Assembly (NCBI GenBank): GCA_006386115.1
Contig: VFIW01000100.1
Coordinates: 1-64,000, forward strand
Source of the DNA: Globisporangium splendens
Taxonomy: Eukaryota; Oomycota; Peronosporomycetes; Pythiales; Pythiaceae
Length of the DNA stretch: 64,000 nucleotides
Direction: 5' to 3'
The translations under genes and the position numbers were made by a program. Within the stretch, counting starts at the first letter, position 1. Each line of letters opens with the position of its first letter. Shown piece by piece: positions 3,354 through 48,450 of this stretch. The notes beneath the pieces were generated by a model. It was not told where the DNA came from and searched no databases. It was given only the letters and a program-made list of their open reading frames with translations.

Positions 3354-5426
3354 ATGCGTGCAATTCTCGCTTCGTTCGTGACCACGTGTGCCATCCTGAT
3401 TGCCACCAACGCTACTCCTGGTGCAGATGCGACGGATTTCAGTCCCGCGAACCGTCAACTTGCGACCAACAAGCCGTTGATCGGGAGTGATTTTAAGTTT
3501 GACGGCAACACATCAGATCTCGCTCGGCAGCTTTACGCCCGATACCAGGCTGGCGACACCGTGGCGAAGGTGACCATCACCGATGTCCCAGACACGGTCC
3601 AGGCTCGTCTCAATAAGTCGAATGCCATGAAGTTTGACGAGTTGCCAGGGTTGGTGCAGCGCGCGCTGCTTTGGGATACTGGGTATGTGCTGGATCCAGC
3701 GGAAAAGATTGTGAAGATGTGGACGCTCGCCGGTCGGTCGATGGCTGACATCTTTGTCTCGAAAGAGGAATACGAATCCGCCAAGTGTGGTGCCAAATTC
3801 TGTCCTAACACTGGTGCACTGGAATCGCAGTCTTACAAGTCGGATACGTGTACTGGCGTCCAGATGCTGTCAGTCGCGAAGTGCTTGGCTGACGATTCCA
3901 ATCCTGTCCAAGAGATCGTTAGCTCGTCCATGTGGTCAACAGGTTCGGACCCGGACTCTATACCTGATATCAAGGTCTGGGATCACTCGTGGACAGACGG
4001 TGGTGTAAGTTACACGGTGTACGCAATCCACACAGCCGAAGACGTGGTGAAGTACGGCAACTGCCCGAAGGCGAACCACTATGGCGCCGTCGTGATCCCA
4101 TGCTACCGGAAATCGGACACCACGCTGGACAAGGCGTCGCAAATGAAAGAGCCCGCGACAAGTGCCTGGCTCGATACGTGGCTTCTCGAGTTTCCCAAAA
4201 AGGAAGCTGTAGCCGAGGCTCCATCACCTGGTCCCTTATCCCCACCAAGTCCTGCTTCAATAGCACCTAGACCGTCGCCAACCACAGTAACAAAGTCTCT
4301 TTCTTTAGGTGTCATCGTTGGGATTGTCGGCGGAGCGTTCCTGGTTCTCCTTGTTCTTCTGATCTTTATCCTCCGGAAATGCCGTACCAAGAGTGACAAC
4401 AATGATGACCAAGTTGAGAACGAGGATTACCGGATTGGGATGGACAGGGTAGAGGGAACTGGTGGCAGCAGAATGGGATCGAATCAGGTGCGCCCTTCAA
4501 TGAAATTCGGAGGAAACAGTGGAGAACGAAACAGTCTTTGGGACGACGACGCGATCTTTGCTGCGCGGATTCCGCGAGAAAAGTTGGTCTTCAAGGCGTT
4601 GCTCTCTCGCGGAGGATACGGAGAAGTGTATCTCGGACGATACAACGGTGCCGCCGTCGCGATCAAACAACTGCTTCCCGAGACACGCAAGAACATGAGC
4701 CAGATCAACTCGTTGCTCGCGGAAGTCAAGCTCCTCGTGTCGCTTGAGCATCCACGAATCATCCAATTCATCGGTGTCGCGTGGGATTCACCATCGGATC
4801 TATGCCTTGTGTTGGAATACATGGAAGGTGGAGATCTGAGAGCACTGCTGACGATGTTCGAGGAGGTGCAGCATCGTGAGCATGGCTTTGATAGCGATAA
4901 ACTCAAGATTGCGCTGCACATCGCTCATGCGTTGACGTACCTGCACTCTCTCGAACCGATGGTGTTGCACCGCGACCTCAAGTCCAGAAATATCTTGCTC
5001 GACTCTAGCTTGAACGCCAAGTTGACGGACTTTGGCGTCTCGAGAGAGCGGAGCAACCACACGATGACTGCTGGCGTGGGGACGTCACTCTGGATCGCGC
5101 CAGAGGTGATGCTGGGTGAGCGCTACGACCAGAAAGCAGACGTGTTTTCGTTTGGCGTCGTGCTCTCGGAGCTCGACTCGCATGCGCTGCCGTACTCGCA
5201 GGTGAAGGAAACGAACTCGGGTCGCCGTATCCCCGACACGGCTGTGCTTCAAATGGTTGCGGTGGGCCGATTGAGCGTGCAGTTCTCACAGAATGCTTCG
5301 CATGCGATGATCGAGCTCGGGAAGCAGTGCGTCGCGAAAGACCCAAACGAACGCCCGCTTGCAGCTGAGATTCTCTACAGACTGCAGCGTGTTTCGAAGG
5401 GTTTGGGAGAGCAGCAGTCGTTTTGA
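3354..5426 (+). CDS. TKL receptor-like kinase, type-a ectodomain
   Basis: A 690-residue single-pass receptor kinase in one uninterrupted exon. Residues 1-26 form a signal peptide. The ectodomain (27 to about 312) has six cysteines (145, 150, 166, 177, 237, 250) and a Pro/Ser-rich stalk at 283-311. Residues 316-341 are the membrane span, followed by basic R-K-C-R. The juxtamembrane motif W-D-D-D-A-I-F-A-A-R-I-P-R-E-K is at 396-410. The kinase (about 412-680) has glycine loop S-R-G-G-Y-G at 418-423, V-A-I-K with Lys438, H-R-D-L-K-S-R-N at 539-546, D-F-G at 559-561 and A-P-E at 582-584, so it should be active. The fold class is TKL. The ectodomain matches 11,766 and more distantly 43,938; I know no ligand for it. 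The start is chosen for its signal peptide and for the initiator-like element about 60 bp upstream. It should sit in the plasma membrane, sensing outside signals. Confidence 0.95.
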   Translation: MRAILASFVTTCAILIATNATPGADATDFSPANRQLATNKPLIGSDFKFDGNTSDLARQLYARYQAGDTVAKVTITDVPDTVQARLNKSNAMKFDELPGLVQRALLWDTGYVLDPAEKIVKMWTLAGRSMADIFVSKEEYESAKCGAKFCPNTGALESQSYKSDTCTGVQMLSVAKCLADDSNPVQEIVSSSMWSTGSDPDSIPDIKVWDHSWTDGGVSYTVYAIHTAEDVVKYGNCPKANHYGAVVIPCYRKSDTTLDKASQMKEPATSAWLDTWLLEFPKKEAVAEAPSPGPLSPPSPASIAPRPSPTTVTKSLSLGVIVGIVGGAFLVLLVLLIFILRKCRTKSDNNDDQVENEDYRIGMDRVEGTGGSRMGSNQVRPSMKFGGNSGERNSLWDDDAIFAARIPREKLVFKALLSRGGYGEVYLGRYNGAAVAIKQLLPETRKNMSQINSLLAEVKLLVSLEHPRIIQFIGVAWDSPSDLCLVLEYMEGGDLRALLTMFEEVQHREHGFDSDKLKIALHIAHALTYLHSLEPMVLHRDLKSRNILLDSSLNAKLTDFGVSRERSNHTMTAGVGTSLWIAPEVMLGERYDQKADVFSFGVVLSELDSHALPYSQVKETNSGRRIPDTAVLQMVAVGRLSVQFSQNASHAMIELGKQCVAKDPNERPLAAEILYRLQRVSKGLGEQQSF

Positions 5427-5941
5427 AAGAACAAAATGGCGACGAGTTCATGATGCTGGCGTACTATCAGAAAAGTCCAACTTTTGTGCCACTTAGTGAC
5501 TGAAAATCATCGAGTAGGTTTGCTGAGTTTCAGTAAAAGCAACCTTGTTGTGAAGAAGTATCCTTTCGGATAACTTCTGCAACTCGTGGTGTCAGAAAAG
5601 CGTGGCTGATCCGTCGGTTGTTTGACTGAGCGGGCATTTCGACGAAGGCAAAGAGATGTGTTTCTCGTACTGACATCTGTGGCAGTAGATTTCTGAGAGG
5701 CTGCGTGATTTTTCGCCACAGAATTGCTTGATGGGTGTGTAAATTAGGTGACTCGAAGCAATATCGTTTCGCTTGGCTCCATTCTGAAACCCACGACCCA
5801 GTGGAGGGATTCCAGTTGGTTTTTGTGTGCCATTTGAATATGTAAAGTCACATAAACGGTGCATATTCTGTATTTTTGGCTTCTGAAGAACTGCTGGATC
5901 TCATCATGGTGCGTTTTTTTGGTATTTTCTTTGCTTTGCAG
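5427..5941. other. Spacer downstream of 3,354
   Basis: No gene is visible. The last 80 bases (about 5,862-5,941) look like the intron that led into the relic exon starting at 5,942, ending in a pyrimidine tract and TTTGCAG. Confidence 0.5.
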
Positions 5942-6240
5942 GCAGATCATCCAGATCAACTTCAAACTCAAACGCGGTAACCACCACAGAAAAGACCTCG
6001 ATCTCCACAGCAGAATGCCAGAAATTGCACGCGATAGTCGATTACCCTATATTAGGATGCTCTGGGTATGCGAACTTGAAAGCGACGGTCAAGGAGTTTT
6101 GCTCAAATGAAGGGTGCATTCAACTCCTGCAAGACTTGCATGCACTCGACGCTGGTTCGTGCATTTCAGATGGCGACGTCACGCTCGACTTTTATCTTGG
6201 CGCGACAATATCGGACTGTCAGCCGCATTTAGAAGGCACA
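5942..6240 (+). pseudogene. Orphan elicitin-like exon (relic)
   Basis: The stretch translates as a Ser/Thr-rich linker followed by an elicitin-like domain with C-S-N-E-G-C (x4 spacing), then 14 residues, then Cys, then a final Cys 18 residues on. It matches exon 2 of the gene at 20,892 along its length, including E-C-Q-K-L-H-A-I-V and the C-I-Q-L-L-Q-D-L block. A good 3' splice site precedes it at 5,940-5,941, and it is a phase 1-1 exon of 294 bases like its intact relative. The expected 5' splice site is GCACAT instead of GTACGT, and the frame then stops at 6,241. I find no signal-peptide exon before it and no membrane exon after it. It is a lone exon left from a duplicated twin-elicitin receptor gene. 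Confidence 0.75.
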
Positions 6241-6357
6241 TAACTCAAGAAATCGTTGTTGACACTGCATGTTTTTATGTGTTTCGTACGCTTTGTGGCC
6301 AAATAGATTCGATACTATGACATTCTCATTGTGTGAAATGATGTGCGTGCTTATACT

Positions 6358-10096: not shown

Positions 10097-10535
10097 GTTC
10101 TTCTCGGATTGCGAGACTCGCCAGCAACGCTGCGCCTTAATTTTCTGTGGCACAAAGTGGTGCTGTCGACTTGGTGCGAAAAAAATGGCACATGTCGCAG
10201 CAGGAAAGATCGACACAGTACCCAAAACAGCGGTACAGTGTACCAGTGTTTGGTTTCTGCTGCTGACTTCATTAGGAGACACCGCGTTAATAGCATAATG
10301 TCATTCATTAAGTCGACATTTGGACGAAAAGTCGACAGTCCTCATGTTGGTGCGACAGCCACACAAAATGTCGGGGGCTGCGACGTGTGCCAGGATTTCC
10401 ACGCCCAAATGATGCGACCGCAAGACAGCATTCGTGTCCCGCATGCATAGCAAATGATGGAAACACGGCAAGATGGCAGTCAGTTCTCAAAAAGAAGGCG
10501 CGTGCGAGTTAAAGATAAGCTCTCGTGCGTGAAAA
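10097..10535. other. Divergent intergenic region
   Basis: This 440-base interval separates the small membrane protein gene (minus) from the bZIP gene (plus) and should hold both promoters. I see no further gene. Confidence 0.4.
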
Positions 10536-11066
10536 ATGGCGCCGGCGACTTCAACTTCGACGCCAGAGGGAGCCCAAGGGAATGCGGCTCTTCTACAAGA
10601 GAACGGACAGCCGATTCCGTTCGACGCAAGAGAGCAACCGCCGCGTCCATGCATTGACGCTCCTGGATCCAACATTGCTCGTGGTGCTGCTGGGCCTCCT
10701 GATGTTCGGGTACTTCGTCGCCGGCTGCGCAATCGGAACTCGTCGGCGCGCTTTCGCGAGCGCCAAAGGTCCCGCGTCGACGAGTTGGAAGCCCAGATCG
10801 CGCTGTTCCAGAGAGAGAACCACACGCTAGAGCAGCTCGTTCGTGAGCTTTCGGCACAAAGCCATGCAGCAAACTCTATGGAGCCAGGTCAGGACTGGAA
10901 TGGAGCGTCGTACACTCCAGCGGACAGGCGATGGGATTCACGAAGACCGCGTCCACCGCCAGTGCTGGTGCTGCTGCAGCACACGGTCGAGGTCATGTCG
11001 GACGAGGAGCTCCTCAGCGCCATCCATCGAGGCGGCTCGTCGACTAGCTCAGCGGAAGAGCATTAG
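10536..11066 (+). CDS. bZIP transcription factor
   Basis: A 176-residue protein with a basic-leucine-zipper in its middle. The basic region reads R-L-R-N-R-N-S-S-A-R-F-R-E-R, which has the invariant N-x7-R DNA-contact pattern. The first zipper leucine falls ten residues after that Arg (V-D-E-L), and the following heptad positions are Phe, Leu and Leu. An N-terminal 55 residues and a C-terminal Pro/Arg-rich part are low in predicted structure; the end is Ser/Thr-rich. Family knowledge: such proteins dimerise through the zipper and bind DNA in the nucleus. Many oomycete bZIPs have altered basic-region residues at the Asn position; this one keeps Asn. Single exon. It is the only transcription factor seen in the receptor island, and whether it regulates the neighbours is unknown. 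Confidence 0.8.
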   Translation: MAPATSTSTPEGAQGNAALLQENGQPIPFDAREQPPRPCIDAPGSNIARGAAGPPDVRVLRRRLRNRNSSARFRERQRSRVDELEAQIALFQRENHTLEQLVRELSAQSHAANSMEPGQDWNGASYTPADRRWDSRRPRPPPVLVLLQHTVEVMSDEELLSAIHRGGSSTSSAEEH

Positions 11067-11089
11067 GCTGAACGGAGTCCAGCACGTGG

Positions 11090-11765: not shown

Positions 11766-14165
11766 ATGCGCGGACTTGCTGCTGCCTCGTGTACGTTTCT
11801 CGTGGCCACCAACACGTTGTCTGGCGTGGATGCGATGCATTTCGATCGCCTGGATCGTCAACTCGCGGCCAACGCGTCGGCGCTCCCCACTGCGAGCACG
11901 TTCAAGTTTGACGGCAACACGTCGGATCTTGCGCGGCAGCTGTACATGCGACACCAGGCGGGCGACACTGTCGCGGCACTGCCCGATGCCGACGTCCCAG
12001 ACACAGTCCAGGCTCGTCTCGATAAGGCGAACGGCATGGCGTTCGACAAACTGCCGGGATTGGTGCAGCGCGCGCTGCTCTGGGATTCTGGGTTTGTGCT
12101 GGATTCGACGAACAAGATCGTGAAGATGTGGACACTCACTGGGCGGTCCATGGCCGAGATCTTTGTCACGAAACAAGAATTCGAAGCCGCAACGTGTGTG
12201 GTCAGGTCATGTGCTAGCACCGGCGCACCGAATTCGCTGTCGTACAAGTCGGAATTGTGTACCGGTACCCAGATGCTGACGGCCGCCAAGTGCATGGCTG
12301 ACGACTCCAGTCCTGTCGAGGTGATCGTGCACTCGTCCATGTGGGCGACGGGCTCGGACCCAAACTTCAGCCCCGACATCACAATTTGGGATCACGCATG
12401 GACCGACGGGGGCGTGGATTACACGGTGTACGCGATCCACACCGCAGAAGACTTGGTAAAGTACGGCAACTGTCCAAAAGTGAACAAGTACAGCGCTATC
12501 GTGATTCCGTGTTACCGAAAATCGAAAGCCTCAGCGACCACGTCGGCGAAAATGAAAGAGCCGGTGACGAGTGCGTGGTTGGATACGTGGCTACTCGAGT
12601 TCCCAAAAACCAAAAGCACAATCGTGCCTTCTTCTCCAGCCAAGACTCCTGCTACTTCTAATGCACCTGCTACTACTGCAGCCCCAGCAGCTGCAGCTTC
12701 GACGGGAGAGCCAAAACCGGTCTCCTTAGGTGTCATCCTTGGAATCAGTGGTGGCGCGTTTCTGCTTCTCCTTCTCATTGTACTCTGCCTGCTCCGAAGA
12801 CACCACGCCAAAGACGACAACAACGACAACAACGACAACAACATCCAAGTTGGCTGCAGCAACAACTTCAGCAACGAGGGCTACCGCATCGGAACAGAAG
12901 CGACGTCTCCATCTGATGGAAGTAGAATAGTATTAAACCAGCAAGCAGGCGTGATTGGTGGAAGTCGAATGATCTCAAATCGGTGGACGCATGTACCTAA
13001 CGAAAGCGGAAAAGCTGTGAACCAGCAGCGGGCAGGAAGAGCTGCCGGGAACAGAATGGTCTCAAGTCAGCAAACAGAGACGCCTGCTGGAGGCAGAATG
13101 ATCTCGAGTCAGCAAGCAGCTGCGTCTAACGATAACAGAATGATCTTGAATCAGCGAACGGACGCAATAGGCGAGAGCCCAACCATCGTGAGTCAGCACC
13201 CAGAGGCAACGCGTCATGGAGCTGGTGCTGGCAAAATTGACTCGAAACAGCAGCCCGCTTCGTTAAAAGCCGGTGGAAACAGTCTCTGGGAAGACCGCGC
13301 GATCTTTGGTGCGCGTATCGCGCGAGAGAAACTGCGTCACGAAACGTTGATCTCACGAGGAGGGTATGGTGAAGTGTATCGCGGACGGTACAAAGGCAGC
13401 ATCGTTGTGATCAAGCAGCTTCTCCCCGAAGCGCGCAGTAACCACCACCAGATCGACGCTCTGCTCGCAGAAGCCAAGCTTCTCGTGTCCCTGAAGCACC
13501 CTCAGGTGGTCCAGTTGATCGGCGTCGCGTGGAACTCACCATCGGATGTTTGCGTAGTGACAGAGTACATGGAGGGAGGGAACTTGCGATCGCTGCTGAC
13601 AATGTTCGAGGACGTGCAGCACCGCATGCACGGGTTCGATAACGGCAAACTGAAGATCGCACTGCACATCGCTCAAGCGTTGACGCACCTGCACTTACAG
13701 GACCCGATCGTGTTGCACCGCGACCTCACGTCCAAGAACATTTTGCTCGACTCCAGCTTGAACGCCAAGTTGACGGGCTTTGGTGCCTCGAAAGAGCGGA
13801 GCTACCAAACGATGGCAGCAGCAAACGCGGACTCGTCGCTGTGGATCGCGCCGGAGGTGATGATGGGCGAGCGCTACGATCAAAAGGCAGACGTGTATTC
13901 GTTCGGCGTCATCCTCTCGGAGCTCGATTCGCACGCGCTGCCGTATTCGGAAATCAGACAATCGCGCTCGGATCGCCATATCCCTGACACGGCCGTGCTC
14001 CAAATGATCGCGACAGGACGCTTGAGCGTGGAATTCTCGCAGAATGCGGCGCATACGATCGTCGCGCTCGGCAAGCAGTGCGTGGCCAGAAACCCGAACG
14101 ATCGGCCGCTGGTGTCGGAGATTCTGTTCCGACTGCAGTGCATCGTGAAGGACACGCGCGAGTAG
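11766..14165 (+). CDS. Receptor-like pseudokinase (GFG), repeat-expanded
   Basis: A 799-residue paralogue of the 3,354 protein: signal peptide 1-23, the same six-cysteine ectodomain (Cys144, 149, 165, 176, 236, 249), an Ala/Pro/Thr stalk, and a membrane span at about 320-343. The juxtamembrane part is about 100 residues longer because of a 14-residue repeat (see 12,924-13,220). The kinase starts near 527 with S-R-G-G-Y-G. Lys550 is kept but its context is V-V-I-K. The catalytic loop is H-R-D-L-T (Lys to Thr at 655), and the DFG motif is G-F-G at 671-673, so the Mg-binding Asp is gone. The activation segment M-A-A-A-N-A-D replaces the M-T-A-G-V-G of its relatives. Ectodomain and frame are intact, which argues for selection as a kinase-dead receptor rather than decay. 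Confidence 0.93.
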   Translation: MRGLAAASCTFLVATNTLSGVDAMHFDRLDRQLAANASALPTASTFKFDGNTSDLARQLYMRHQAGDTVAALPDADVPDTVQARLDKANGMAFDKLPGLVQRALLWDSGFVLDSTNKIVKMWTLTGRSMAEIFVTKQEFEAATCVVRSCASTGAPNSLSYKSELCTGTQMLTAAKCMADDSSPVEVIVHSSMWATGSDPNFSPDITIWDHAWTDGGVDYTVYAIHTAEDLVKYGNCPKVNKYSAIVIPCYRKSKASATTSAKMKEPVTSAWLDTWLLEFPKTKSTIVPSSPAKTPATSNAPATTAAPAAAASTGEPKPVSLGVILGISGGAFLLLLLIVLCLLRRHHAKDDNNDNNDNNIQVGCSNNFSNEGYRIGTEATSPSDGSRIVLNQQAGVIGGSRMISNRWTHVPNESGKAVNQQRAGRAAGNRMVSSQQTETPAGGRMISSQQAAASNDNRMILNQRTDAIGESPTIVSQHPEATRHGAGAGKIDSKQQPASLKAGGNSLWEDRAIFGARIAREKLRHETLISRGGYGEVYRGRYKGSIVVIKQLLPEARSNHHQIDALLAEAKLLVSLKHPQVVQLIGVAWNSPSDVCVVTEYMEGGNLRSLLTMFEDVQHRMHGFDNGKLKIALHIAQALTHLHLQDPIVLHRDLTSKNILLDSSLNAKLTGFGASKERSYQTMAAANADSSLWIAPEVMMGERYDQKADVYSFGVILSELDSHALPYSEIRQSRSDRHIPDTAVLQMIATGRLSVEFSQNAAHTIVALGKQCVARNPNDRPLVSEILFRLQCIVKDTRE
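12924..13220 (+). repeat. 42-bp coding minisatellite (14-aa repeat x7)
   Basis: Residues 387-485 of the pseudokinase consist of about seven imperfect copies of a 14-residue unit, consensus (S/N/G)-R-M-(I/V)-(S/L)-(S/N)-Q-(Q/R) followed by six variable residues. Copies vary from 13 to 16 residues. The 3,354 paralogue has one copy (S-R-M-G-S-N-Q at 372-378). The repeat lies on the cytoplasmic side next to the membrane. Confidence 0.8.
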
Positions 14166-14767: not shown

Positions 14768-15964
14768 TCAGACAAAACCGCCGCTCATTTCCTTCATTGC
14801 GCCATGGAGTCTGTACGAGACTTCTGCTGCTGTCGGACGATCCTTTGGATCGAGGGCGATACACTCATTAGCCAGCGCTACGATAGCACTGGACGCATTA
14901 GCTGAAAACTGGACTCGCAGACGTCCCATGGCGACCATTTGGAGCACAGCGGTGTCCGGGATACGCCGACCCGACTCGGTTTCTTTCTCTTGCGAGTACG
15001 GAAGCGCATGACAATCCAACTCGGAGAGCACGATACCGAATGAGAACACGTCTGCCTTTTGATCGTATCGCTCACCCATCATCACCTCAGGCGCCATCCA
15101 CAACGAGGATCCGACTCCCGCTGTCATCGTTCGATCGCTTCGTTCTCTGGAGACGCCAAAGTCTGTCAGTTTGGCGTCCAGCTGACCGTCGAGCAGGATA
15201 TTCTTGGATTTCAGATCGCGGTGCACAACCACTGGCTGTAGCGAGTGCAAGTACGTCAGCGCGTGCGCCACGTGCTGAGCAATTTTGATTTTCTCGTGGT
15301 CGAAGCCATGCGGACGGTGCTGCACTTCCTCAAACTGCGTCACCAAAGCTCTCAAATCGCCTCTTTCCATGTATTCCAACACGACGCACAGATCCGTGAG
15401 CGAGTCCCACGCGACGCCGATAAACGAAACAATTTGCGGGTGGTCCAGCGATGCCACGAGTTTCACTTCAGCGAGAAACGCATTGATCTGCTTCAGGTTC
15501 TTGCGCGTCTCCGGGAGCAGCATCTTGATCGCAACAGCAGATCCGTTGAACTGGCCGCGGTACACTTCGCCATACCCACCTCGCGAGAGCAATGCGCCAA
15601 ATGACACCTTTTCGCGTGGAATGCGTCCGGCAATGATGGCTTCGTCGTCCCAAAGCCCACCAACAGGAACACTCAACGGATCGTAAGGCACAGACTCGTA
15701 TTTATGGCTGCGAACGGTGACAGGGTCCGTCTCGAGGCGCTGGTGCTCCAAGTCGACGTTGTCGTTCTTGCTGCGGCTCTGGTGGTTGCGCTGCCCAAAG
15801 CTTCGTCCGATGATGATCCCTGCAACCAGAATCGCGAGGACGACGACGCCGATGCCCCCGTAAATGTAGTTGTCGTCCAGATCGGACTGCAGGAGCACCA
15901 GAAACCCCGCGCCGGCGATGCAGATGAGACCGACACCGCAAACCACGGCTGTGCAGCGCTTCAT
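14768..15964 (-). CDS. Ectodomain-less TKL membrane kinase, two spans
   Basis: A 398-residue kinase. Two hydrophobic segments (about residues 4-26 and 39-60) are separated by only about a dozen residues, so the protein forms a hairpin in the membrane and has practically no ectodomain. The kinase begins near 120 after the W-D-D-E-A-I-I-A-G-R-I-P-R-E-K motif. S-R-G-G-Y-G, V-A-I-K, H-R-D-L-K-S-K-N, D-F-G and A-P-E are all present, so activity is expected. The frame extends 7 codons upstream to an ATG at 15,985; I use 15,964 (M-K-R-C) because it aligns with the start of its paralogue at 18,350. The two genes are divergent and 2.4 kb apart, with a relic between them, so they look like an inverted duplication. 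The first hydrophobic segment could also act as an uncleaved signal anchor. Confidence 0.92.
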   Translation of the reverse strand: MKRCTAVVCGVGLICIAGAGFLVLLQSDLDDNYIYGGIGVVVLAILVAGIIIGRSFGQRNHQSRSKNDNVDLEHQRLETDPVTVRSHKYESVPYDPLSVPVGGLWDDEAIIAGRIPREKVSFGALLSRGGYGEVYRGQFNGSAVAIKMLLPETRKNLKQINAFLAEVKLVASLDHPQIVSFIGVAWDSLTDLCVVLEYMERGDLRALVTQFEEVQHRPHGFDHEKIKIAQHVAHALTYLHSLQPVVVHRDLKSKNILLDGQLDAKLTDFGVSRERSDRTMTAGVGSSLWMAPEVMMGERYDQKADVFSFGIVLSELDCHALPYSQEKETESGRRIPDTAVLQMVAMGRLRVQFSANASSAIVALANECIALDPKDRPTAAEVSYRLHGAMKEMSGGFV

Positions 15965-33750: not shown

Positions 33751-35196
33751 TTAGCTTTGTTGCTGGGTGAGCGTCTTCAATGCCAACTGGAGCTTGTACA
33801 GAACCTCGGCCGCCGTCGGGCGCTCCTTGGGTTCAACAGCGACACACGCTTCACCAAGTTCGCGCAGCTCGGGCAACACGTCCTCGGAAAACTGGACGCA
33901 AAGTCTCCCCATGGACACGAGCTGTAGGATCGCCGTGTCCGTGAGCTTCTGGCCAGTGTCGGCGTTCTTGGCGTGCGCATACGGCAGCAAGTGCGAATCC
34001 AGTTCACTGAGCACGACGCCAAAGGAGAAGATGTCGGCTTTCTCGTTGTACTGCTCGCCCATCATGACTTCCGGCGCCATCCATAATGACGTGCCTACAC
34101 CTGCAGTCATGGTCGCATCGGACTGTTCTCGAGACACACCAAAGTCCGTGAGCTTCGCGTCCCACTGCGCACTCAACAGAATGTTCTTGGACTTGAGGTC
34201 GCGGTGCAGCACGATGGGCAGCAGCGAGTGCAAGTACGTGAGCGCGTGGATCACGTGCAGCGCGATCTTGACTTTGTCGTAGTCGAACCCGTGCGGTCGC
34301 TGTTCGCTGACTTCGAACCGCATCAGCAGCGTGCGCAGGTCGCCGCCGTCCATGAACTCGGACAGCACGCACACATCACTCAGAGAATCCCAGGCCACAC
34401 CGATAAACTGCACGATGCGCGTGTGCTCCAGCGCGATCATGAGCTTGACTTCGGCGAAAAAGGCCTCGATATGCTTGAGATCTTTTCTGGTAGCCGGCAG
34501 CAGCTTCTTGATCGCCACGACCTGGCCCTTGTACAGACCTCGATACACTTCGCCGTAGCCGCCGCGGCTGATCAGTGCGTGAGTTTCAACTTTCTCGAGC
34601 GGGATCTTGGCCGCGACGATCGACGGGTCGTCCCACGTGCCGCTCTGGTTCGTATGCCCGGACCCAGTGCTCACGAACATGTCTGCGCGGTTGTTCATCA
34701 TGCGGCCTGTGTTGATAGTGCTGAAATTTGCTGTCGTCGCGCTGGACGACGCGTTCGGCCGCGGCGACTTCTTGCTGAACGAACCTGAGCGCTTGAAGCG
34801 CCTGTACCAAATCGTGAACGCCGCGATCATGAGCACGATGGCGACGGTACCCACACAGATGCCGACGATCGCTCCAATTGAGAGGTGCGGCTTGTCTTGT
34901 GGAGGCAGCGGACCGCCGATGCTTCCTTTTGTGACAGTGTCCATGCTTGAATTCGACGACGATTGGCTATTGCCGCTGGTAAAGTTGGACGACGATGGAG
35001 CGATGGAAATCGGTTGCGGTGTCGGTGGCAGCGATACGCTCCCGGAAGACTTACTACTTGATTTACCGTCGCCCATTTCGCTTTGTTTCTTCGGTGTCGG
35101 CGTAGGAGTCGGAGGTGGCGTCAGCTTTGGAGTCGGAGGAGGCGTCGGACTCGGACTTGGTTGCTTCCCGTCATTGACCACGAACTCGATAACGTT
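33751..35196 (-). CDS. TKL receptor-like kinase, 5' end unresolved
   Basis: The frame gives about 480 residues and is open to a GTG, not an ATG, at 35,181. A good 3' splice site (TTTTGCGTAG) ends at 35,197, so the first exon lies upstream. One candidate is a short exon with ATG near 35,330 and a GTGCGT donor, adding about 12 residues but no signal peptide. The visible part has a Pro/Thr-rich stalk (P-T-P-P-P-T-P), Ser/Asn-rich sequence, a membrane span (G-A-I-V-G-I-C-V-G-T-V-A-I-V), then W-D-D-P-S-I-V-A-A-K-I-P-L-E-K and an intact kinase with S-R-G-G-Y-G, V-A-I-K, H-R-D-L-K-S-K-N, D-F-G and A-P-E. It is the closest paralogue of the 31,774 protein, in tandem with it. Confidence 0.85.
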   Translation of the reverse strand, partial: NVIEFVVNDGKQPSPSPTPPPTPKLTPPPTPTPTPKKQSEMGDGKSSSKSSGSVSLPPTPQPISIAPSSSNFTSGNSQSSSNSSMDTVTKGSIGGPLPPQDKPHLSIGAIVGICVGTVAIVLMIAAFTIWYRRFKRSGSFSKKSPRPNASSSATTANFSTINTGRMMNNRADMFVSTGSGHTNQSGTWDDPSIVAAKIPLEKVETHALISRGGYGEVYRGLYKGQVVAIKKLLPATRKDLKHIEAFFAEVKLMIALEHTRIVQFIGVAWDSLSDVCVLSEFMDGGDLRTLLMRFEVSEQRPHGFDYDKVKIALHVIHALTYLHSLLPIVLHRDLKSKNILLSAQWDAKLTDFGVSREQSDATMTAGVGTSLWMAPEVMMGEQYNEKADIFSFGVVLSELDSHLLPYAHAKNADTGQKLTDTAILQLVSMGRLCVQFSEDVLPELRELGEACVAVEPKERPTAAEVLYKLQLALKTLTQQQS

Positions 35197-36166
35197 CTAC
35201 GCAAAACAGCAGAAACCAACAGCAGTACAAACCAAGCAAAAGACGCATTTAGACCTTCAGCATGAAAGAGATACGCGAACTTGGGTGAAGAGACGACGCA
35301 CCGTGCCATCGTTGTCGGCTTCGACCACGCTCCTCATCGTCGTGGATGGCTCTCGCTGTGTCTACCGCAACGCGCTTCCCTTGACAGCCTGCGCTCAGCT
35401 CTCAGTCAGGACAGTAGCCGTTCAACTTGCCGCAGTTGTCGAATGCTCGTAATCCCTGCGTTTGTTCCGACACTTTGCACGGAAAATGGAGAAACATGTC
35501 AGACGTGGCGATGTGTGTGGACCACATGGACCACACCAGTAGCCAGTTATTGCAAATCGCTCAATGGATTCAGCGGTTCGAGTTCTTTTCGTTTTAAAAT
35601 GCGCTGCTCTGATCTGGAGCCATATTCGAACACATGACGTGAGACCCGTTTTGGCTGTGACAATGTGAACCAATGTGCATCGTGAAATGGAATGCGGCAC
35701 TCGCTTCATTTTTCGATGGTGGAAGAGAGTCAGCGTAAAGATACCGTCTGGCGCAACGGAATCAGACGAGACAGATGTGCGGCTGTAGATGTATAATAGA
35801 GGGCAATGGCGTGTCGGTCGTTCCCCCAGACATCTCTGCTCCACAATGGGATATGCACGCCTTCTTGCACTGAAATCTCTCTCTTTGTGTGCCTCAAGTG
35901 CATGCTGCAATTGGAGGATTGACAGGACTTTGGGAAAGTGGCTCGTTGATGAAAGAACAGACGCCATGAGAAGGATCCAAAAGCAGGCTGGGCTGTCTGT
36001 TGGTCTCCACTTTTTCCGCACTCACAGGTGCCGAATTACCAGTGGGAATCGATCTGCGTACAGCGCTGAAGAGGCTCGTCACAAGGAGCACGACCAGCGC
36101 ACTCTTTTATTTGTGTGTGTGTGTGTGTTTACAGGTAGATGCAAGCGAGAAACATGTTAACATTAA
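35197..36166. other. Region upstream of the 33,751 kinase
   Basis: It should contain the missing first exon(s) of the 33,751 gene, but no signal-peptide exon stands out. A GT repeat occurs at 36,112-36,128. A minus-strand frame of 199 codons at 35,422-36,021 has no recognisable features. Confidence 0.35.
36112..36128. repeat. (GT)8 microsatellite
   Basis: A GT run just past the 3' end of the first LPMO gene. Confidence 0.9.
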
Positions 36167-37045
36167 TTACGCGCGACGCGTCTTGGCCGTGCACTTCTTG
36201 GTTGGGCTCGGCGTCGAGACCGTCGTGGCCGCAGGCGCGTCAGTGGTGGCGTACTCGTCCGAACCGGAGGCCGAGGTGACAGGCGCTTCCGTCACGGTCT
36301 CATCGTCCGTAGCGGACGCTGCTGACGAGTCCGTCGTGGCAGTCGTGTCATCGGCTGAGCCCGTGGTAGACGTCGCGGCACTTGTCGAGTCGGTGTCCTC
36401 GGCAACTGGGGTCGCAGTGGTCGGCGTTGGTGTCGTCGTCGTCGTAGCGGTTGAAGTGGAGCTGCTGCCCGAGGCTGTGCCACCTGTGAGGTACACGCAG
36501 TTGGTGTATACTTGCCATGGCGCGCTGTGGAGTGCGAGCCAGAAGATGCGGAAGCGGTTGGCGCCGCTGCACTTGCTCGCGTCCACGGGAACCTTGCCCG
36601 ACGCGTACGTCGTCTGGCAATCGTAGTCGAACGCCAACTTGTTGTCGTCGCACCAGAGCTCACATGGACCTGGATGCGTGAAGCCCGAAAACGTGATCTC
36701 GGTCGCGGGCATGTCGGCGCGCTTGGACTCGTCCAGGATCGTGTACCCGCACTCCTTGTCGATCGTGTCCTCGTACATGTCCTGGTTCGCCAAGATCAGA
36801 TCCTTGAGCGTTGTGTATCCAGAGTCTGGGTAGTTGGCCTTGAAGTACTTGATCGTGCCCTCGCCGCCGTAGCCGTAGACCGAGCCATCCTGTGCACCCC
36901 AGATCGTGTTGTTCACCTCACTGATGTAGCCGTTCACGGCGTACCCAGTCGACCACACCGCGGCTGGGTCGACGATATTGCCGTGTGCGAAGACGACAGG
37001 CAACGAAGCCAGGAAGAGTGCGCTCGTAGAAGCAAACACGTTCAT
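36167..37045 (-). CDS. Secreted AA17-type LPMO
   Basis: A 292-residue secreted protein. The start at 37,045 is chosen because it opens a signal peptide (M-N-V-F-A-S-T-S-A-L) ending before H-G-N-I-V-D-P; the longer frame to 37,348 is leader sequence. After cleavage His becomes residue 1, as the copper 'histidine brace' of lytic polysaccharide monooxygenases requires. F-T-H-P-G-P-C-E-L-W-C probably carries the second copper His. The catalytic domain ends near Q-V-Y-T-N-C-V-Y-L. A long Thr/Ser/Ala linker and a basic end (S-P-T-K-K-C-T-A-K-T-R-R-A) follow. The family fits auxiliary activity 17, known from oomycetes and reported to cleave pectin oxidatively. It is the first of three tandem paralogues and has an initiator-like element 52 bp upstream. 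Confidence 0.9.
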   Translation of the reverse strand: MNVFASTSALFLASLPVVFAHGNIVDPAAVWSTGYAVNGYISEVNNTIWGAQDGSVYGYGGEGTIKYFKANYPDSGYTTLKDLILANQDMYEDTIDKECGYTILDESKRADMPATEITFSGFTHPGPCELWCDDNKLAFDYDCQTTYASGKVPVDASKCSGANRFRIFWLALHSAPWQVYTNCVYLTGGTASGSSSTSTATTTTTPTPTTATPVAEDTDSTSAATSTTGSADDTTATTDSSAASATDDETVTEAPVTSASGSDEYATTDAPAATTVSTPSPTKKCTAKTRRA

Positions 37046-37499: not shown

Positions 37500-38285
37500 T
37501 TAGACGCGACGAACCTTGCCCGTGCACTTCTTCTTGGTTGGGCTCGGGGTCGAGGCTGCTGGCGCGTCCGTGGCGTACTCGTCATCGTCAGCCGCTGGGG
37601 CAGGCGTGGCCGCTGGCGTCTCTGTCTCACCATCATCGGCGTCGTTGGCGACTGGAGCGGCCGAGGTGACAGTTGGAGTCGAGCCGGCCGCCTTCGGCGT
37701 AGTGGCTGGCGTGGTGGAGCCACCCTTGCTGCCCTTGAGGTAGACGCAGTCGGTGTACACCTGCCATGGAGAGCTGTGCACGCCGATCCAGTAGATCGTG
37801 AATCGGTCGGCGCCCGCGCACTTGGAGACGTCGACTGGCACAGCGCCAGTTGGGTACGTCGCAGCACAGTCGTTGGCGAATGCCAACTTGTTGTTGTCAC
37901 ACCAGAGCTCACATGGACCAGGGTGCGAGAAACCCGAGAACTTGACTTCCGACGGCATCGTCGCGCGCTTGGACTCGTCCTTGATCGTCAAACCGCACTG
38001 TGGGTCAGTCGTGGCGTCGTACATCTTCTGGTTCTTCAGGATCAGGTCCTTGAGCGTCGAACCGGCCGGGAAGTTCTTGGTGAAGTACTTGACCGCGCCT
38101 TCCGGGCCGTAGCCGTACGTCGCGCCATCCATGTCGCCCCACAGCGTGCTGCTCACCTCACTGATGAAGCCATTTTGTGGATACCCCGCCTTCCACACAG
38201 CCGGCGGGTCGACGATGTTGCCGTGCGCGAGCACCGCAGGCGTGGCCGCCAACAGGAGAGCACCGGTCGTCGCGAACACGTTCAT
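37500..38285 (-). CDS. Secreted AA17-type LPMO
   Basis: A 261-residue paralogue of the 36,167 product. The signal peptide (M-N-V-F-A-T-T-G-A-L) ends before H-G-N-I-V-D-P-P, giving an N-terminal His. The conserved F-S-H-P-G-P-C-E-L-W-C and the W-Q-V-Y-T-D-C-V-Y block are present. The linker is shorter and Ala/Thr/Pro-rich, and the end is S-P-T-K-K-K-C-T-G-K-V-R-R-V. Single exon. The start is set by the signal peptide; upstream codons to 38,516 are leader. A TCATTCA initiator-like sequence is about 80 bp upstream. Secretion to the cell surface or apoplast, and oxidative polysaccharide cleavage, are expected from the family. Confidence 0.9.
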   Translation of the reverse strand: MNVFATTGALLLAATPAVLAHGNIVDPPAVWKAGYPQNGFISEVSSTLWGDMDGATYGYGPEGAVKYFTKNFPAGSTLKDLILKNQKMYDATTDPQCGLTIKDESKRATMPSEVKFSGFSHPGPCELWCDNNKLAFANDCAATYPTGAVPVDVSKCAGADRFTIYWIGVHSSPWQVYTDCVYLKGSKGGSTTPATTPKAAGSTPTVTSAAPVANDADDGETETPAATPAPAADDDEYATDAPAASTPSPTKKKCTGKVRRV

Positions 38286-39134: not shown

Positions 39135-40039
39135 TTACGCGCGGTGGGTCTTGGCCGTGCACTTCTTGGTCGGGCTCGGGGTCGACGCCGCGGCTGGTGC
39201 TGGCATAGCTGCTGGCGCGTTCGTGGCGTACTCGTCACCGGCGGTGGGGGCTGACGTTTCATCGTCGGCGTCCCCAGCGACGGGAGCGGCTGTCGTGGCC
39301 GCAGGAGCTGATGCAGGAGCCTTGCTCGCGGTAGCAGCTCCACCAGAGCCGCCCGTGAGGTACACGCAGTTGGCTATTTACGAGAAAACACAAATGAGCT
39401 GTGGGTATAATGCCATGCAATGAAATGGTTGTGATGCAGCATAGATGCGTCAACACTGCAGCAAGATCACTTACTGTAGACTTGCCACATGGAGGCGTGG
39501 ACAGCGAGCCAGTAGACCGTGAACTGGTTGGCGTTGGCGCACTTGCTCGAGTCGATGGGCACCAGTCCCGATGGGTACTTGGCCGCGCAGTCGTTGTCGT
39601 ACGACAACTTGGTGTCGTCGCACCAGAGCTCACAAGGACCCGGGTGCGTGAAGCCGCCGACGTCGCCATTGCCGAACTTCATCTCGGTCGGCAGTTTCGA
39701 CCGCTTGGCCTCGTCCAGCTTCGTGTACCCACACGCTTCATCGAGCCCGGATGTCCACATGACCTGGTTCTCGAGGATCAAGTCCTTGAGCGATGCGACG
39801 CCAGACTCCGGGAACTTTTCGGCGATGAACTTGACGGCGCCTTCCGGACCCCAACCGTACTTGAAGCCGTCGATTTCGCCCCAGATCGAGCCGTTCACCT
39901 CACTGATGTAACCATTATGCGGGTATCCTTCCGTCCACTGCGCAGCAGGCGAGATGACGTAGCCGTGGCCGAGGACGGCAGCCGGCGCCAACACCGCCAG
40001 CACGAGCACTCGGGTCGAGAGAACAAAGGAAGTCTTCAT
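39135..40039 (-). CDS. Secreted AA17-type LPMO, one intron
   Basis: Exon 1 is 40,039-39,475 and exon 2 is 39,373-39,135, giving 267 residues. The 101-base intron (GTAAGT donor, AAATAG acceptor, phase 1) splits Q-V-Y-T from N-C-V-Y-L, that is, near the end of the catalytic domain; the two sister genes have no intron there. The signal peptide (M-K-T-S-F-V-L-S-T-R) ends before H-G-Y-V-I-S-P. F-T-H-P-G-P-C-E-L-W-C is intact. The Ala/Pro linker ends in S-P-T-K-K-C-T-A-K-T-H-R-A. It is the most divergent of the three, with a different signal peptide and H-G-Y-V-I-S-P in place of H-G-N-I-V-D-P, so it may act on a different polymer. Confidence 0.9.
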
Positions 40040-40097
40040 GAGTATCGAGGTGTGGAAGATGGGGAAATGGTGGTGGTGGAGTGCTCGAGTTGCGGCA

Positions 40098-41019: not shown

Positions 41020-42522
41020 TCATAATGTCTCGAGCATCTGCTGGATCTTGGCTACGACCTCCAGGGAGCTTGGACGCGCCTCTGGGTCTAACGACAGGCA
41101 CGCGCGACCGAGACTCGCCATATCCGGGTGGCACTGCGCCGAGAACTCGGCCTGCACGGAGCCCATAGTGACCATGTGCAAGACCGCCGGCTCGGGGAGA
41201 TGGCGCCCATCAGGCGTCGTGACGTTCACGTACGGCAGCGAATGCGTGTCCAACTCGGTCAGCACGATGCCGAACGAGAAGAGGTCGGCTCTCTCGTCGT
41301 AGTTCTCGCCGAGCATGATCTCGGGTGCCATCCAGAGCGACGACCCGATGTTCGCGGTCAGCGTCCGCGTAAGCTGCTCCGAACGTTCGCGGGACACGCC
41401 AAAGTCACTCAGTTTCGCGTCCCAATTGTCGCTCAGCAGGATGTTGGCGGATTTCAGGTCTCGGTGGATGATCTTCTTGGGCGAGAGCGAGTGTAGATAC
41501 ACGAGCGCTTCGGCCACGTGGAGCGCGATCGTGAGCTTCTTGGCGTCAAAGCCCTGCGGCTCGCCTCGCTGTTTCCATTTACTGCGCACTCTGTGGAGAT
41601 CGCCGTGCGCCATGAACTCCGAGACGATGCACAGATCACGCATCGCGTCCCAGCCGACGCCGATAAACTCGACGACGCGCGGATGGTCGAACGTCGCCAT
41701 CATGCGCACTTCGAGCATGAAATACTCGAGCTTCTCGACGCTTTTCCGCGTCTCGGGCAACAGTCGCTTGATCGCGACTTTGCGGCCGCGGAAGCTGCCT
41801 TCAAACACTTCGCCAAACCCGCCACGACGGATCAGCGTGCGGATTCGGATCTCCTCGTACGGGATTCGCGCCGCCGCGATGATCGGATCTCTCCAGATGC
41901 CGCTCATGCTGTCGCTGTCCGAGTTGCTGGTCACACCCGCGGTGCTGACGTACGACGAGTACGGCGACAACGGGCGAGGCTGCGTTCTCGTGTTCGTGCT
42001 ACCGACTTTCCACGTGCTGCTCAGACTGCTGCTCCTCGACTCCAGTTGCGGTTCCTCGTCGGCGCTGCTCTTGTAGACATCGCGATGGGTCTGTTTGCCC
42101 GCGCGCTTCCTGGTTCTCAGGATCGTACACAGCAGCGCCGCGATGATCACAAGCGAGACACCGCCGACGCCGAACATGAGGTCGTACCGCTGCCCGCCTC
42201 CTCCGTCTTGAGAGAGACCCGTCGTCTTGTTCGACTCCGCTTCCGATGAGCTAGATGGTGCGATCGTCGTCACAGACCGTCTTGTCGATGGAGCGTCGAG
42301 ACTCGACGATCCGGAAGACGACAACGACACCGCAGCTGCTGCGCTGTTACTCGAATTCATGGTCGGTGTCGGTGCATCTGTCGTCGTCTGCAAGTCCCGC
42401 TCTGGCGTCACCATGACGTTCGGCTCACCACTGCCGCTGCAAAGCTGGACAAGTTGCACGCACACTGCAATCGCGACAAGACGGCGCCGCATGCCACGGG
42501 GGACTCGTCGCGACGACGGCAT
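41020..42522 (-). CDS. TKL receptor-like kinase, Ser/Thr-rich ectodomain
   Basis: A 500-residue single-exon protein. The frame extends to a TTG at 42,603; the first ATG is 42,522, and an internal ATG at 42,492 would start directly at the signal peptide (M-R-R-R-L-V-A-I-A-V-C-V). The ectodomain of about 85 residues is Ser/Thr/Ala-rich and probably glycosylated, without cysteines. Membrane span at about 112-135. The kinase motif is W-R-D-P-I-I-A-A-A-R-I-P-Y-E-E and the glycine loop R-R-G-G-F-G. V-A-I-K, H-R-D-L-K-S-A-N, D-F-G and A-P-E-I are intact. It is more divergent from the cluster than most, with insertions such as E-Q-L-T-R-T-L-T-A-N-I-G in the activation segment. Sensor for the cell wall or mechanical state is possible but unproven. 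Confidence 0.92.
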   Translation of the reverse strand: MPSSRRVPRGMRRRLVAIAVCVQLVQLCSGSGEPNVMVTPERDLQTTTDAPTPTMNSSNSAAAAVSLSSSGSSSLDAPSTRRSVTTIAPSSSSEAESNKTTGLSQDGGGGQRYDLMFGVGGVSLVIIAALLCTILRTRKRAGKQTHRDVYKSSADEEPQLESRSSSLSSTWKVGSTNTRTQPRPLSPYSSYVSTAGVTSNSDSDSMSGIWRDPIIAAARIPYEEIRIRTLIRRGGFGEVFEGSFRGRKVAIKRLLPETRKSVEKLEYFMLEVRMMATFDHPRVVEFIGVGWDAMRDLCIVSEFMAHGDLHRVRSKWKQRGEPQGFDAKKLTIALHVAEALVYLHSLSPKKIIHRDLKSANILLSDNWDAKLSDFGVSRERSEQLTRTLTANIGSSLWMAPEIMLGENYDERADLFSFGIVLTELDTHSLPYVNVTTPDGRHLPEPAVLHMVTMGSVQAEFSAQCHPDMASLGRACLSLDPEARPSSLEVVAKIQQMLETL

Positions 42523-43937: not shown

Positions 43938-45923
43938 TCATAACGACATGGAGATTTTGGACTGGAGCATGTACACGATCTGCATGGCGTTCGGTCGTTT
44001 CTCGGGGGTCTGGTTCAGGCACGCGTCCGCGAGTGTGAGCACGGCTGGGGGACAATCGGGACGAAACCGCGGCGTGATGCGTCCACCTCGGATCAGCGGC
44101 AACAGCTCGACGCTCTTGGAGTGACGGACTTCGTCGTTCAGCGAGTACGGGGGTAGGCACGTGTCGAGTTCGGACAGAACGATGCCGTACGAGTAGATAT
44201 CAGCTTTCTCCGAGTATCGATCCCCGCGCAGCACTTCAGGTGCTGTCCACAGCAACGTGCCTACGCCCATGGTCATCGTTTCTTCGAATGACCGCTCGCG
44301 GCTGAGTCCAAAGTCACTCAGCTTTGCCTCAAACGTCGCTGTGAGTAGGATATTGAGCGATTTTAAGTCGCGATGGATGATCACAGGCACGAGCGAGTGC
44401 AGATACACGAGCGCCTTGGCGATATCGGACGCCAGCGAGAGCTTCTCGTTCTTCCAGGTCAGCGCGCGACTCTCTTTCGACACGAGGAACCGCGCGAGGT
44501 CGCCTATCGGGAGAAACTCGGAGATCATACTGAGCTCAGCCAGCGACCGCCAGGACAACCCGATGAAGCGCACAATGTTCGGGTGTTCGAGGGACGAACC
44601 GAGACGGATCTCGCGCGAAAAGATCTCGATCGCACGCACATCGCTCCGCATATCGGTGAGCAACCGCTTGATCGCGACGAATTGACCCGCGTACTCGCCG
44701 CGCCAGACTTCGCCATTCGCGCCTTTCGCGATCAGCTTCTCAAACTTGAGCGCGTCGTACTCGATCTTGCGCACGAGGAGCTCCTCGTTCTCGCAAAAGT
44801 CGACGAGTTCGTCAGACTGGTCCAGGTATTCTTCGTTGACACGATCGATGGCGATCGCCTGCGAGCTGCGAGTCGTGGGCTCCGAGGGGATCGTGTTGCG
44901 AGCAAGCTGCCCGGGTGTGGTCGCGAAATTGTTGTTGTTGTTGTTGTTCTGGAAAACGTTCCCGAAAATGGCGTAGTGGGTCGAGTCGTTGTGGTCCTTG
45001 AACTGTTTCTTCCGCCAGAGCACGTACACGAAGCCGCCGATGGCGACGCACGCGAGCGCGAAGAAGCTAATAAATATCGTCGACGTGCGCACCCATTTCC
45101 TGTGATCAGCGTCGTACAGCGGCGTATCCACTTCCTCGTGGAGCCACAGTTCGACGAACGAGCCGCTCAGAGGCACGCACCACGTGCCATCCTCGGCATT
45201 CGCGGGACTCAGCGCTTGACACGGCACGACGAAGTTCGCGGCCTTGTTCGGGCACGTGACATTGTCTCGCAGCTGGTACGTTGGGTTCTGGAAGATCGTG
45301 TACAGCACCGTGGTCGACGACGCGTTGGAGAGCGAGTTGTCGTACTTGAACACCTGGAACGACGAGTCGAGCGTGACGAGGCCCTCTTCGGACCAGAACG
45401 TGTTGGCGCTCGTGACCGTGATCGCGCCGTCGTCATCATCGTCCTCGATGATCGCACAGCGCGTGTCGGGGACAATAGCGTCGGCCGAACAGTTCGGGTA
45501 CGCGAACGTCAGGATCTGGCGATTGCACACGACGAGCGTGCAGTTCGCGTTGCCCTGCACCGTGTCCTTGCTCACGAAAATGTCGGCCATGGTCTTGCCG
45601 CACTTGGTGCGCACCTGCACGTACGAGCTGCCGTCGGAAGTCAAGATGTACCCGGCGTCGTACAACAGCGCACGCTGCAGCGCCGTCGAGAGCGACGTGA
45701 ACGACGCGCCTTTCGCGCTATCAAGCAGCTTGGTGACGCTCGACGGGAGCGGGTCGGGGATCAACGGCAGCGCCGGGAACACCGCGTCACCGTTCTTCGT
45801 GAGCTTATACATCTCCGCGGGTACATCGATCACTGCAGACGCAGGCTTGGCAACCAGGAAGAACACGAAGAGCAGCGACGCCGCATAGAACACGACGGCG
45901 CGGGTCGCCGTGATGACTATCAT
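43938..45923 (-). CDS. TKL receptor-like kinase, divergent type-a ectodomain
   Basis: A 661-residue receptor kinase. The start at 45,923 opens a signal peptide (M-I-V-I-T-A-T-R-A-V, to about 30). The ectodomain shares A-L-Q-R-A-L-L-Y-D-A-G-Y, G-K-T-M-A-D-I-F-V-S-K and F-V-V-P-C with the 3,354 and 11,766 proteins, so it is a distant member of the same uncharacterised ectodomain family, with more cysteines and several N-x-S/T sites. A membrane span (I-F-I-S-F-F-A-L-A-C-V-A-I) follows, then a poly-Asn run. The kinase has A-K-G-A-N-G-E-V, V-A-I-K, H-R-D-L-K-S-L-N, D-F-G-L-S and A-P-E-V, and should be active. The usual W-D-D...R-I-P-R-E-K motif is replaced by a weak version (E-L-L-V-R-K-I-E-Y-D). 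The large antisense frame across it is an artefact. Confidence 0.93.
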   Translation of the reverse strand: MIVITATRAVVFYAASLLFVFFLVAKPASAVIDVPAEMYKLTKNGDAVFPALPLIPDPLPSSVTKLLDSAKGASFTSLSTALQRALLYDAGYILTSDGSSYVQVRTKCGKTMADIFVSKDTVQGNANCTLVVCNRQILTFAYPNCSADAIVPDTRCAIIEDDDDDGAITVTSANTFWSEEGLVTLDSSFQVFKYDNSLSNASSTTVLYTIFQNPTYQLRDNVTCPNKAANFVVPCQALSPANAEDGTWCVPLSGSFVELWLHEEVDTPLYDADHRKWVRTSTIFISFFALACVAIGGFVYVLWRKKQFKDHNDSTHYAIFGNVFQNNNNNNNFATTPGQLARNTIPSEPTTRSSQAIAIDRVNEEYLDQSDELVDFCENEELLVRKIEYDALKFEKLIAKGANGEVWRGEYAGQFVAIKRLLTDMRSDVRAIEIFSREIRLGSSLEHPNIVRFIGLSWRSLAELSMISEFLPIGDLARFLVSKESRALTWKNEKLSLASDIAKALVYLHSLVPVIIHRDLKSLNILLTATFEAKLSDFGLSRERSFEETMTMGVGTLLWTAPEVLRGDRYSEKADIYSYGIVLSELDTCLPPYSLNDEVRHSKSVELLPLIRGGRITPRFRPDCPPAVLTLADACLNQTPEKRPNAMQIVYMLQSKISMSL

Positions 45924-45987
45924 TGTGTACTTGTGCCACGCGCGACAAGAACGGGGGATATACGAGACGAGCCTACGTAAGAACAGC

Positions 45988-45995
45988 GAGAATGA
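45988..45995 (-). promoter_or_regulatory. Initiator-like element of the 43,938 gene
   Basis: On the minus strand TCATTCTC followed by GCTGTTCTT, 65-75 bp before the ATG. It fits the TCATTYY initiator. Confidence 0.5.
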
Positions 45996-47546: not shown

Positions 47547-48450
47547 CTACATATGCGCATCATGGGACGCCACCGACGGCTGCAATCGCGTCAGCACGTG
47601 AGCGGCTATAGGACGATCCGACGGATCCAAAGCCTCGCACTCGCGTCCTAATTGGGCGATGCCAGGCGGTGCGTCGGCGGAGAATGTGACTTGTAGCTTC
47701 CCTTCGACAACTCTACACAGAAGCTCTGCATCGGGCACGCGAAAGTGGTCCTCGACATGTGCACATGGCAATGCATGCGAGTCGAGTTTCGAGAGCATGA
47801 CACCGAATGCAAAGATGTCGGCTTTCTCTGTGCACTGCTTCCCTAGAACCACCTCGCGTGCCATCCAGAGCGAACTGCCTGCACCTGAAGTCACGGAGCA
47901 ATCCGTTCGCGTCTGTGAGCACCCGATGTTTGTCAGCTTGGCGATCCATGTGTTTGTGAGCAGGATGTACTTCGATCTTAGGTCTCGATGCAACACGCGA
48001 GGCTGGCGTGTGTGCAGGTGCACCAGTGCCTCGGTAACATGGCAAGCGATCTTGCGCTTCTTTGAATGAAAGACTTTCGAGCGAGGCTTCTCGTTCGTAT
48101 CGAATGATGTCAACAGCGTGCGCAGATCGCCGGCGTGCATGACCTCGGTCACGACGCATACTTTGGCGATGGAATCCCATGTAACCAATAGAAGCTGCAC
48201 GATCTGCGGGTGCACGAGCGACACAGTGGGCTCCACGATGTCTTCCTGGAGCGCGCCGAGTCAAACAGGATGCAGTCGTCCACGCCAAACGCCACGAGGT
48301 TCGAGACGAGTCGCGTGCAGTTTGTATTCGCGCAGATCGCAGGCAACTCGGTCTCTTGGATCGAGGGCTGCATGGGCAGCAGCTGTGGACATGAGTGCGA
48401 GTCATTTGTGACGGACTCGAGCGCAACCTGGTCACGTGGCGCTCAGGGGA
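47547..48450 (-). pseudogene. Elicitin-like receptor kinase relic with internal deletion
   Basis: The 5' part (48,430 to about 48,260) encodes an elicitin-like segment with C-A-N-T-N-C, 14 residues, Cys. A frameshift follows, and then the end of that domain (E-D-I-V-E-P) runs straight into S-L-V-H-P-Q-I-V-Q, the middle of the kinase N-lobe. So the stalk, membrane span, glycine loop and ATP-binding Lys are deleted. The rest of the kinase is open to 47,547 but altered: H-R-D-L-R-S-K-Y (Asn to Tyr), D-F-G is N-I-G, and A-P-E is A-R-E. No signal peptide precedes it. It is a dead gene of the 26,041/29,967 type. Confidence 0.85.

Follow-up and report, generated by a model that had tools for sequence, protein, structure and literature searches.

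A probable fast-turnover array of TKL receptor-like kinases with elicitin-like and type-B ectodomains around an AA17-type LPMO trio in Globisporangium splendens

Receptor-like kinases of the tyrosine kinase-like (TKL) type are known from oomycetes. In the accessible portion of the Phytophthora infestans kinome paper (PMC3019232), 139 TKLs are counted, all 99 eukaryotic protein kinases (ePKs) with membrane segments are TKLs, and 23 ePK clusters of 2-13 genes are given, at least 17 of them clustered in P. ramorum too; many oomycete TKL receptor-like kinases are described there as having no recognised ectodomain. Large TKL sets, 220 and 298 respectively, are found in the accessible text on Pythium guiyangense (PMC6502433) and Saprolegnia parasitica (PMC3681718), with some kinase genes responsive to infection or germination, and the TKLs of P. 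guiyangense are densely clustered as well. Here, the first 64 kb (the window) of contig C5 (VFIW01000100.1, 152,539 bp) of Globisporangium splendens, from an assembly of 53.3 Mb in 195 contigs, were analysed, where 11 TKL-type kinase open reading frames (ORFs) lie between 3.3 and 46 kb together with three genes for AA17-type lytic polysaccharide monooxygenases (LPMOs).

The window receptors resemble TKL receptor-like subfamilies 2-4 of P. infestans in TKL kinase, clustering, the presence of some inactive members and, as judged by eye, an apparent signal peptide and membrane pass with the kinase on the cytoplasmic side, whereas the ectodomain named for those subfamilies in the accessible text is a leucine-rich repeat and the ectodomains in the window are elicitin-like or of a second class, type B (PMC3019232). 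In that paper's main text, as accessible to us, the word "elicitin" is absent (0 occurrences; PMC3019232), and in the accessible accounts of P. guiyangense and S. parasitica the kinase and elicitin families are handled separately (PMC6502433, PMC3681718). The first-pass annotation, made from the sequence alone, had held that a coupling of lipid-type sensors to active kinases within an LPMO neighbourhood would be an unusual oomycete system. TKLs of receptor-like type and clusters of TKL genes are already known (PMC3019232, in part); a literature search covering few subscription papers found no published description of the elicitin-type ectodomain on them or of an elicitin-kinase fusion.

The block is probably a tandem array with fast turnover, made up of TKL receptor-like kinases specific to oomycetes; the three AA17-type LPMO genes embedded in it would be an old neighbour. 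The gene inventory drawn up beforehand was confirmed with corrections and comprises the kinase family, one kinase-less receptor, four relics, three LPMOs and a bZIP ORF (Table 1). Transmembrane segments and signal peptides were assigned by eye from the translations, a Pfam search was applied to six of the 11 kinases, and P0018 (FI667_g14804) is a deposited protein mapping to the window. VAIK-, HRD- and DFG-type motifs are all present in nine kinase ORFs; those at 11766-14165 and 6358-7653, judged from their motifs, are probably catalytically dead and are called pseudokinases. As these two have no complete set of catalytic motifs, the earlier description of eleven intact membrane kinases is true of open frames, not of catalysis. 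At least two kinases are without an ectodomain, a secreted ectodomain plus one membrane pass being judged by eye. In the kinase-less receptor, two elicitin-like modules are followed by a hydrophobic segment. The deposited model P0022 appears, in our reading, to be a wrong merge of this receptor with the adjoining kinase, and its elicitin match was consequently left out of the fusion count given below.

Table 1. Features of the receptor and LPMO block (window positions)
Feature	Position	Strand	Remark
TKL receptor kinase, type-B ectodomain (six-cysteine, unclassified)	3354..5426	+	all kinase motifs kept
Elicitin-like module relic	6016..6228	+	masked tblastn
TKL-like probable pseudokinase, N-terminal hydrophobic segment	6358..7653	-	HRD lost, DLG
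bZIP domain ORF	10533..11066	+	PF00170 34.7 bits, cut-off 27.6
TKL receptor kinase, type-B ectodomain, probable pseudokinase	11766..14165	+	HRD present, GFG replaces DFG
TKL kinase, two N-terminal hydrophobic segments (by eye), without ectodomain	14768..15964	-	
Kinase relic	16900..17391	+	masked tblastn
TKL kinase, two N-terminal hydrophobic segments (by eye), without ectodomain	18350..19549	+	
Receptor relic (stalk/membrane part)	20006..20385	+	masked tblastn
Kinase-less membrane receptor, two elicitin-like modules, introns	20892..22117 (limits approximate)	+	
Elicitin-like TKL receptor kinase, two exons	26041..27690	+	
Elicitin-like TKL receptor kinase	29967..31652	+	
TKL kinase, short Ser-rich N-terminal part	31774..33000	-	
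TKL kinase, Pro-rich stalk, at least two exons	33751..35337	-	
AA17-type LPMO 1	36167..37045	-	
AA17-type LPMO 2	37500..38285	-	start picked by homology; in-frame ATG also upstream
AA17-type LPMO 3, two exons (40039-39473, 39350-39138)	39138..40039	-	
TKL kinase, Ser/Thr-rich stalk	41020..42522	-	identical in C155 copy
TKL receptor kinase, type-B ectodomain	43938..45923	-	relatives in G. polare and one metagenome each on a contig that has an LPMO
Relic of elicitin-like receptor kinase	47550..48433	-	kinase relic 47550-48260 plus abutting 48266-48433

What makes the locus interesting is the fusion of elicitin-like modules to kinases and the type-B ectodomain. Elicitin-like modules occur in two of the 11 kinases (26041, 29967) and in the kinase-less receptor (20892), and the proposal that all receptors of the block are elicitin-like was rejected. 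As a name for the block, "elicitin-like sensors" thus fits these three proteins, but the type-B ectodomain is as common, being carried by three of the 11 kinases (3354, 11766, 43938). It comprises about 240 residues with six cysteines, and no match to it was obtained in the Pfam, PDB-sequence, Foldseek or VIA searches.

Comparison of eight ectodomain pieces (four from the window, one from C155 and three from C6) with the elicitin family PF00964 gave a match at E <=1 in seven, with a best E of 1.3e-5. The trimmed 26041 piece reached 25.5 bits against a cut-off of 25; whole proteins scored 18.5, 20.1 and 24.7 bits, under the same cut-off. A profile built from the elicitin-like pieces matched sylvaticin at E 3.7e-4, cinnamomin at 0.016 and cryptogein at about 0.1; a single unrelated chain came at 0.24. 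The top three Foldseek matches of a weak AlphaFold2 (AF2) model (pLDDT 70.6, pTM 0.54) were elicitins at E 0.6-0.8. On these similarities "elicitin-like" appears to be the correct label, but the relationship is distant.

The likeness to elicitins consists of the six-cysteine C-x4-C-x14-C core, present in all four window modules, the helical model and the sylvaticin match. The differences are the fusion to a membrane kinase and, in all four window modules, a C2-C3 segment of 13-17 residues that has no YS motif. In the C6 receptors examined, the gap of 4 in the core is replaced by one of 2. In the one other elicitin of the genome that was examined, on C137, the C2-C3 segment has 23 residues and SGYSF is present. 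The tyrosine of the full C2-C3 loop is presumably the sterol-site residue of elicitins. Because the segment is short and the YS motif absent, a lipid ligand appears doubtful for the window copies. At C137:147284-149638, a secreted elicitin whose hydrophobic end looks GPI-like, as judged by eye, stands tail to tail with an array-family TKL receptor kinase about 160 bp away; an elicitin/TKL receptor kinase pair like it, judged by position, is found on C39.

The module profile was also run against 126 kinase homologues, namely the best 120 of 2,251 matches plus six, some of them from G. splendens itself. At E < 0.01, 17 matched. Training sequences make up or are contained in six of these, among them the probably merged P0022. 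The other 11 belong to G. splendens (two), G. polare (three), Pythium insidiosum (four) and P. oligandrum (two), and elicitin-kinase fusions are thus also present in the latter three species; no Phytophthora kinase matched among the best 120 of 2,251 plus six homologues. Three of the six P. insidiosum and P. oligandrum receptor kinases examined (P0034, P0040, P0049) have a C2-C3 segment of 23-24 residues and the YS motif, and the other three show a different cysteine pattern with gaps of 22, 1 and 14.

In a full receptor, a secreted elicitin-like or type-B ectodomain would be followed by a single membrane pass and a TKL kinase on the cytoplasmic side. In the most likely mechanism, the ectodomains, presumably at the cell surface, would bind small ligands or wall and host surface molecules outside the cell, whereupon receptor pairing would be altered and the kinase would start a phosphorylation cascade. 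Kinases with short ectodomains, both pseudokinases and the kinase-less receptor with its two elicitin-like modules could serve as co-receptors, modulators or decoys, and the repertoire would be renewed by duplication, loss and ectodomain exchange. A bolder proposal, which we regard as improbable, is that the Pythiaceae put the elicitin lipid-carrier fold on the outside of an active receptor kinase, so that these sterol-requiring organisms gained a direct host-lipid sensor, which lies with type-B receptors and pectin-type LPMOs in a persistent wall-attack-and-sensing locus. For sterol-auxotrophic oomycetes, the three full-loop receptors of P. insidiosum and P. oligandrum would offer a test of sterol perception. 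Little is known of how oomycetes sense their environment, and the locus offers two ectodomain classes as concrete proteins to test.

Turnover of the array is visible in relics and in the difference between contigs. Masked tblastn with 176 proteins on the window outside the gene models located four relic sites (starting at 6016, 16900, 20006 and 48266; Table 1). C5 pairs with C155 at 92-97% identity over 27.9-47.8 kb, and 5.98-27.88 kb of C5 corresponds to about 1.8 kb in C155. Elsewhere in the assembly, DNA matches of more than 200 bases to C5 6-25.9 kb are at most 79% identical, and the 26041 kinase finds at most 81% protein identity. Six receptor genes (6358, 11766, 14768, 18350, 20892, 26041) and the bZIP ORF lie in this stretch of about 22 kb, for which the assembly offers no close counterpart. 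The four relics and the presence/absence difference between C5 and C155 support the birth-and-death array that had been proposed from the sequence. The array on C6 is larger: its first 130 kb give 20 kinase ORF matches, fragments counted, with a minimum of 150 residues; at 49-60 kb of C6, four near-identical tandem kinase copies are 95.1-99.8% identical in aligned DNA.

The two kinases without catalytic motifs, the four relics and the segment of about 22 kb without a close counterpart would also fit the view that the many copies are degenerate duplication by-products with little function. This view is very unlikely, as dN/dS between copies is 0.08-0.27 in all eight gene comparisons with differences and a ninth gene (41020) is identical, the genes of the segment of about 22 kb standing outside the comparison because they have no allele. 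The value for LPMO 2 is 0.08 from the chosen start and 0.19 when about 55 codons upstream are included, and that for the 33751 kinase (33754 row) is 0.11 trimmed versus 0.13 untrimmed; the relic at 47550-48260 was left out since it matched a paralog at 49.6% identity.

AA17 LPMOs cleave pectin oxidatively. A PDB comparison, made for LPMO 1 of the three, gave the AA17 structure 6z5y at E 1.2e-18, and the histidine-brace motifs, HG after a signal-like leader and HPGPCE, are present in all three window LPMOs. They differ from that enzyme in belonging to a tighter, locus-type clade of 34 rows, with fragments P0156 and P0163 counted in addition, which extends to E 8.2e-60 before a drop to distant matches from E 1.9e-34. 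In all three, a tail rich in Thr, Ser and Ala runs into TPSPTKK(K)C followed by a basic end, and in several Phytophthora relatives KC and basic residues form the end. In P. kernoviae, the single deposited protein P0123 holds two LPMO units, through a fusion or through the merging of gene models.

A listed kinase is found on 10 of the 22 contigs of at least 5 kb that carry a locus-type LPMO versus 0 of 10 with other LPMOs (one-sided p 0.010), and on 10 of 27 versus 0 of 11 at all contig sizes (p 0.018), the contigs not being phylogenetically independent, the p values uncorrected for relatedness, the kinases taken from the best 120 of 2,251 matches, and shared contigs inferred from equal contig size and species. 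Without G. splendens and P. oligandrum the count is eight of 20 (at least 5 kb), P. citrophthora (2.2-Mb contig) and P. lilii being counted on the shared contig. Where locus tags are visible, the closest LPMO-kinase pairs are separated by 4 (P. kernoviae), 5 (Nothophytophthora) and 6 (P. capsici) tags. The kinases of P. kernoviae, P. capsici, P. lilii and Nothophytophthora form one 13-member clade (support 1.0), those of G. polare and one metagenome group with 43938, and another metagenome kinase groups with 33751. An LPMO-kinase neighbourhood peculiar to G. splendens was therefore rejected in view of the shared contigs in relatives. Conserved linkage, whose absence had been named beforehand as refuting, was found in several relatives, not in all.

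Beyond these limits of the linkage count, several observations weigh against the proposed turnover array with an old LPMO neighbour. LPMO and kinase are about 165 locus tags apart in P. oligandrum, and 12 of the 22 locus-type LPMO contigs show no listed kinase. The 3354 row of the dN/dS set may compare paralogs. At 1.9-5.4 kb C6 is closer to C5 than C155 is (96-98% versus 88-90%), so simple allelism fails at that end. The absence of about 22 kb could be an assembly gap, the G. splendens draft being 93.5% complete by BUSCO (PMC7163027).

Within G. splendens, whose LPMO and kinase lists are lower bounds, only the C5/C155 pair among at least 21 LPMO clusters adjoins a listed kinase, at 1.6 kb. 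Two further clusters lie 25.6 and 31.8 kb from a kinase of the array family, about as expected with 8.5% of the genome within 50 kb of a listed kinase. No general association of AA17s with array-family kinases is seen in this genome, and the idea that AA17s in general stand near such kinases was rejected by these distances. A chance gathering of two tandem families without evolutionary persistence would account for this and for the 12 contigs with no listed kinase. It is nevertheless quite improbable, being largely contradicted by the cross-species linkage: eight contigs are shared outside G. splendens and P. oligandrum, six of them are short (5.5, 10.6, 34, 49, 81 and 150 kb), and the visible tag distances are 4 to 6.

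The linkage might instead mark a functional module, in which the LPMOs act on wall polysaccharide, the adjoining receptors sense the products or wall damage, and co-regulation keeps the genes together. Kinase, kinase, LPMO, LPMO, LPMO, kinase and kinase follow one another on the minus strand at 31.8-45.9 kb, and contigs are shared in Globisporangium, Nothophytophthora and Phytophthora. We consider such a module unlikely, given that only one pair of the G. splendens LPMO clusters adjoins an array-family kinase, that the two next distances are near expectation and that, to our knowledge, elicitin folds are known for binding lipids, not oligosaccharides; functional LPMO-receptor coupling is speculation. 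In the accessible text of PMC2926784, Phytophthora gene order is highly conserved, so LPMO-kinase linkage among Phytophthora is expected, and collinear ortholog runs between P. ultimum and Phytophthora reach only up to 10, despite which the Globisporangium-Phytophthora linkage is seen; the latter is somewhat more notable. Telomere-to-telomere assemblies are reported for P. sojae, G. ultimum, P. oligandrum and G. spinosum (PMC11139960). The LPMO neighbourhood of the array appears to be old, and the linkage is best read as retained by descent. No paper on AA17-kinase gene clusters was found in the literature search, and the persistent neighbourhood opens a simple co-expression test.

Beyond the right end of the block, a purple acid phosphatase is encoded at 51076-53487, with several distant copies on C129, C112 and C113. 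The left edge of the array carries an RVT_3 (RNase H-like) fragment at 1877-2377, beside which a repeat at 265-926 has copies on C155 and C6.

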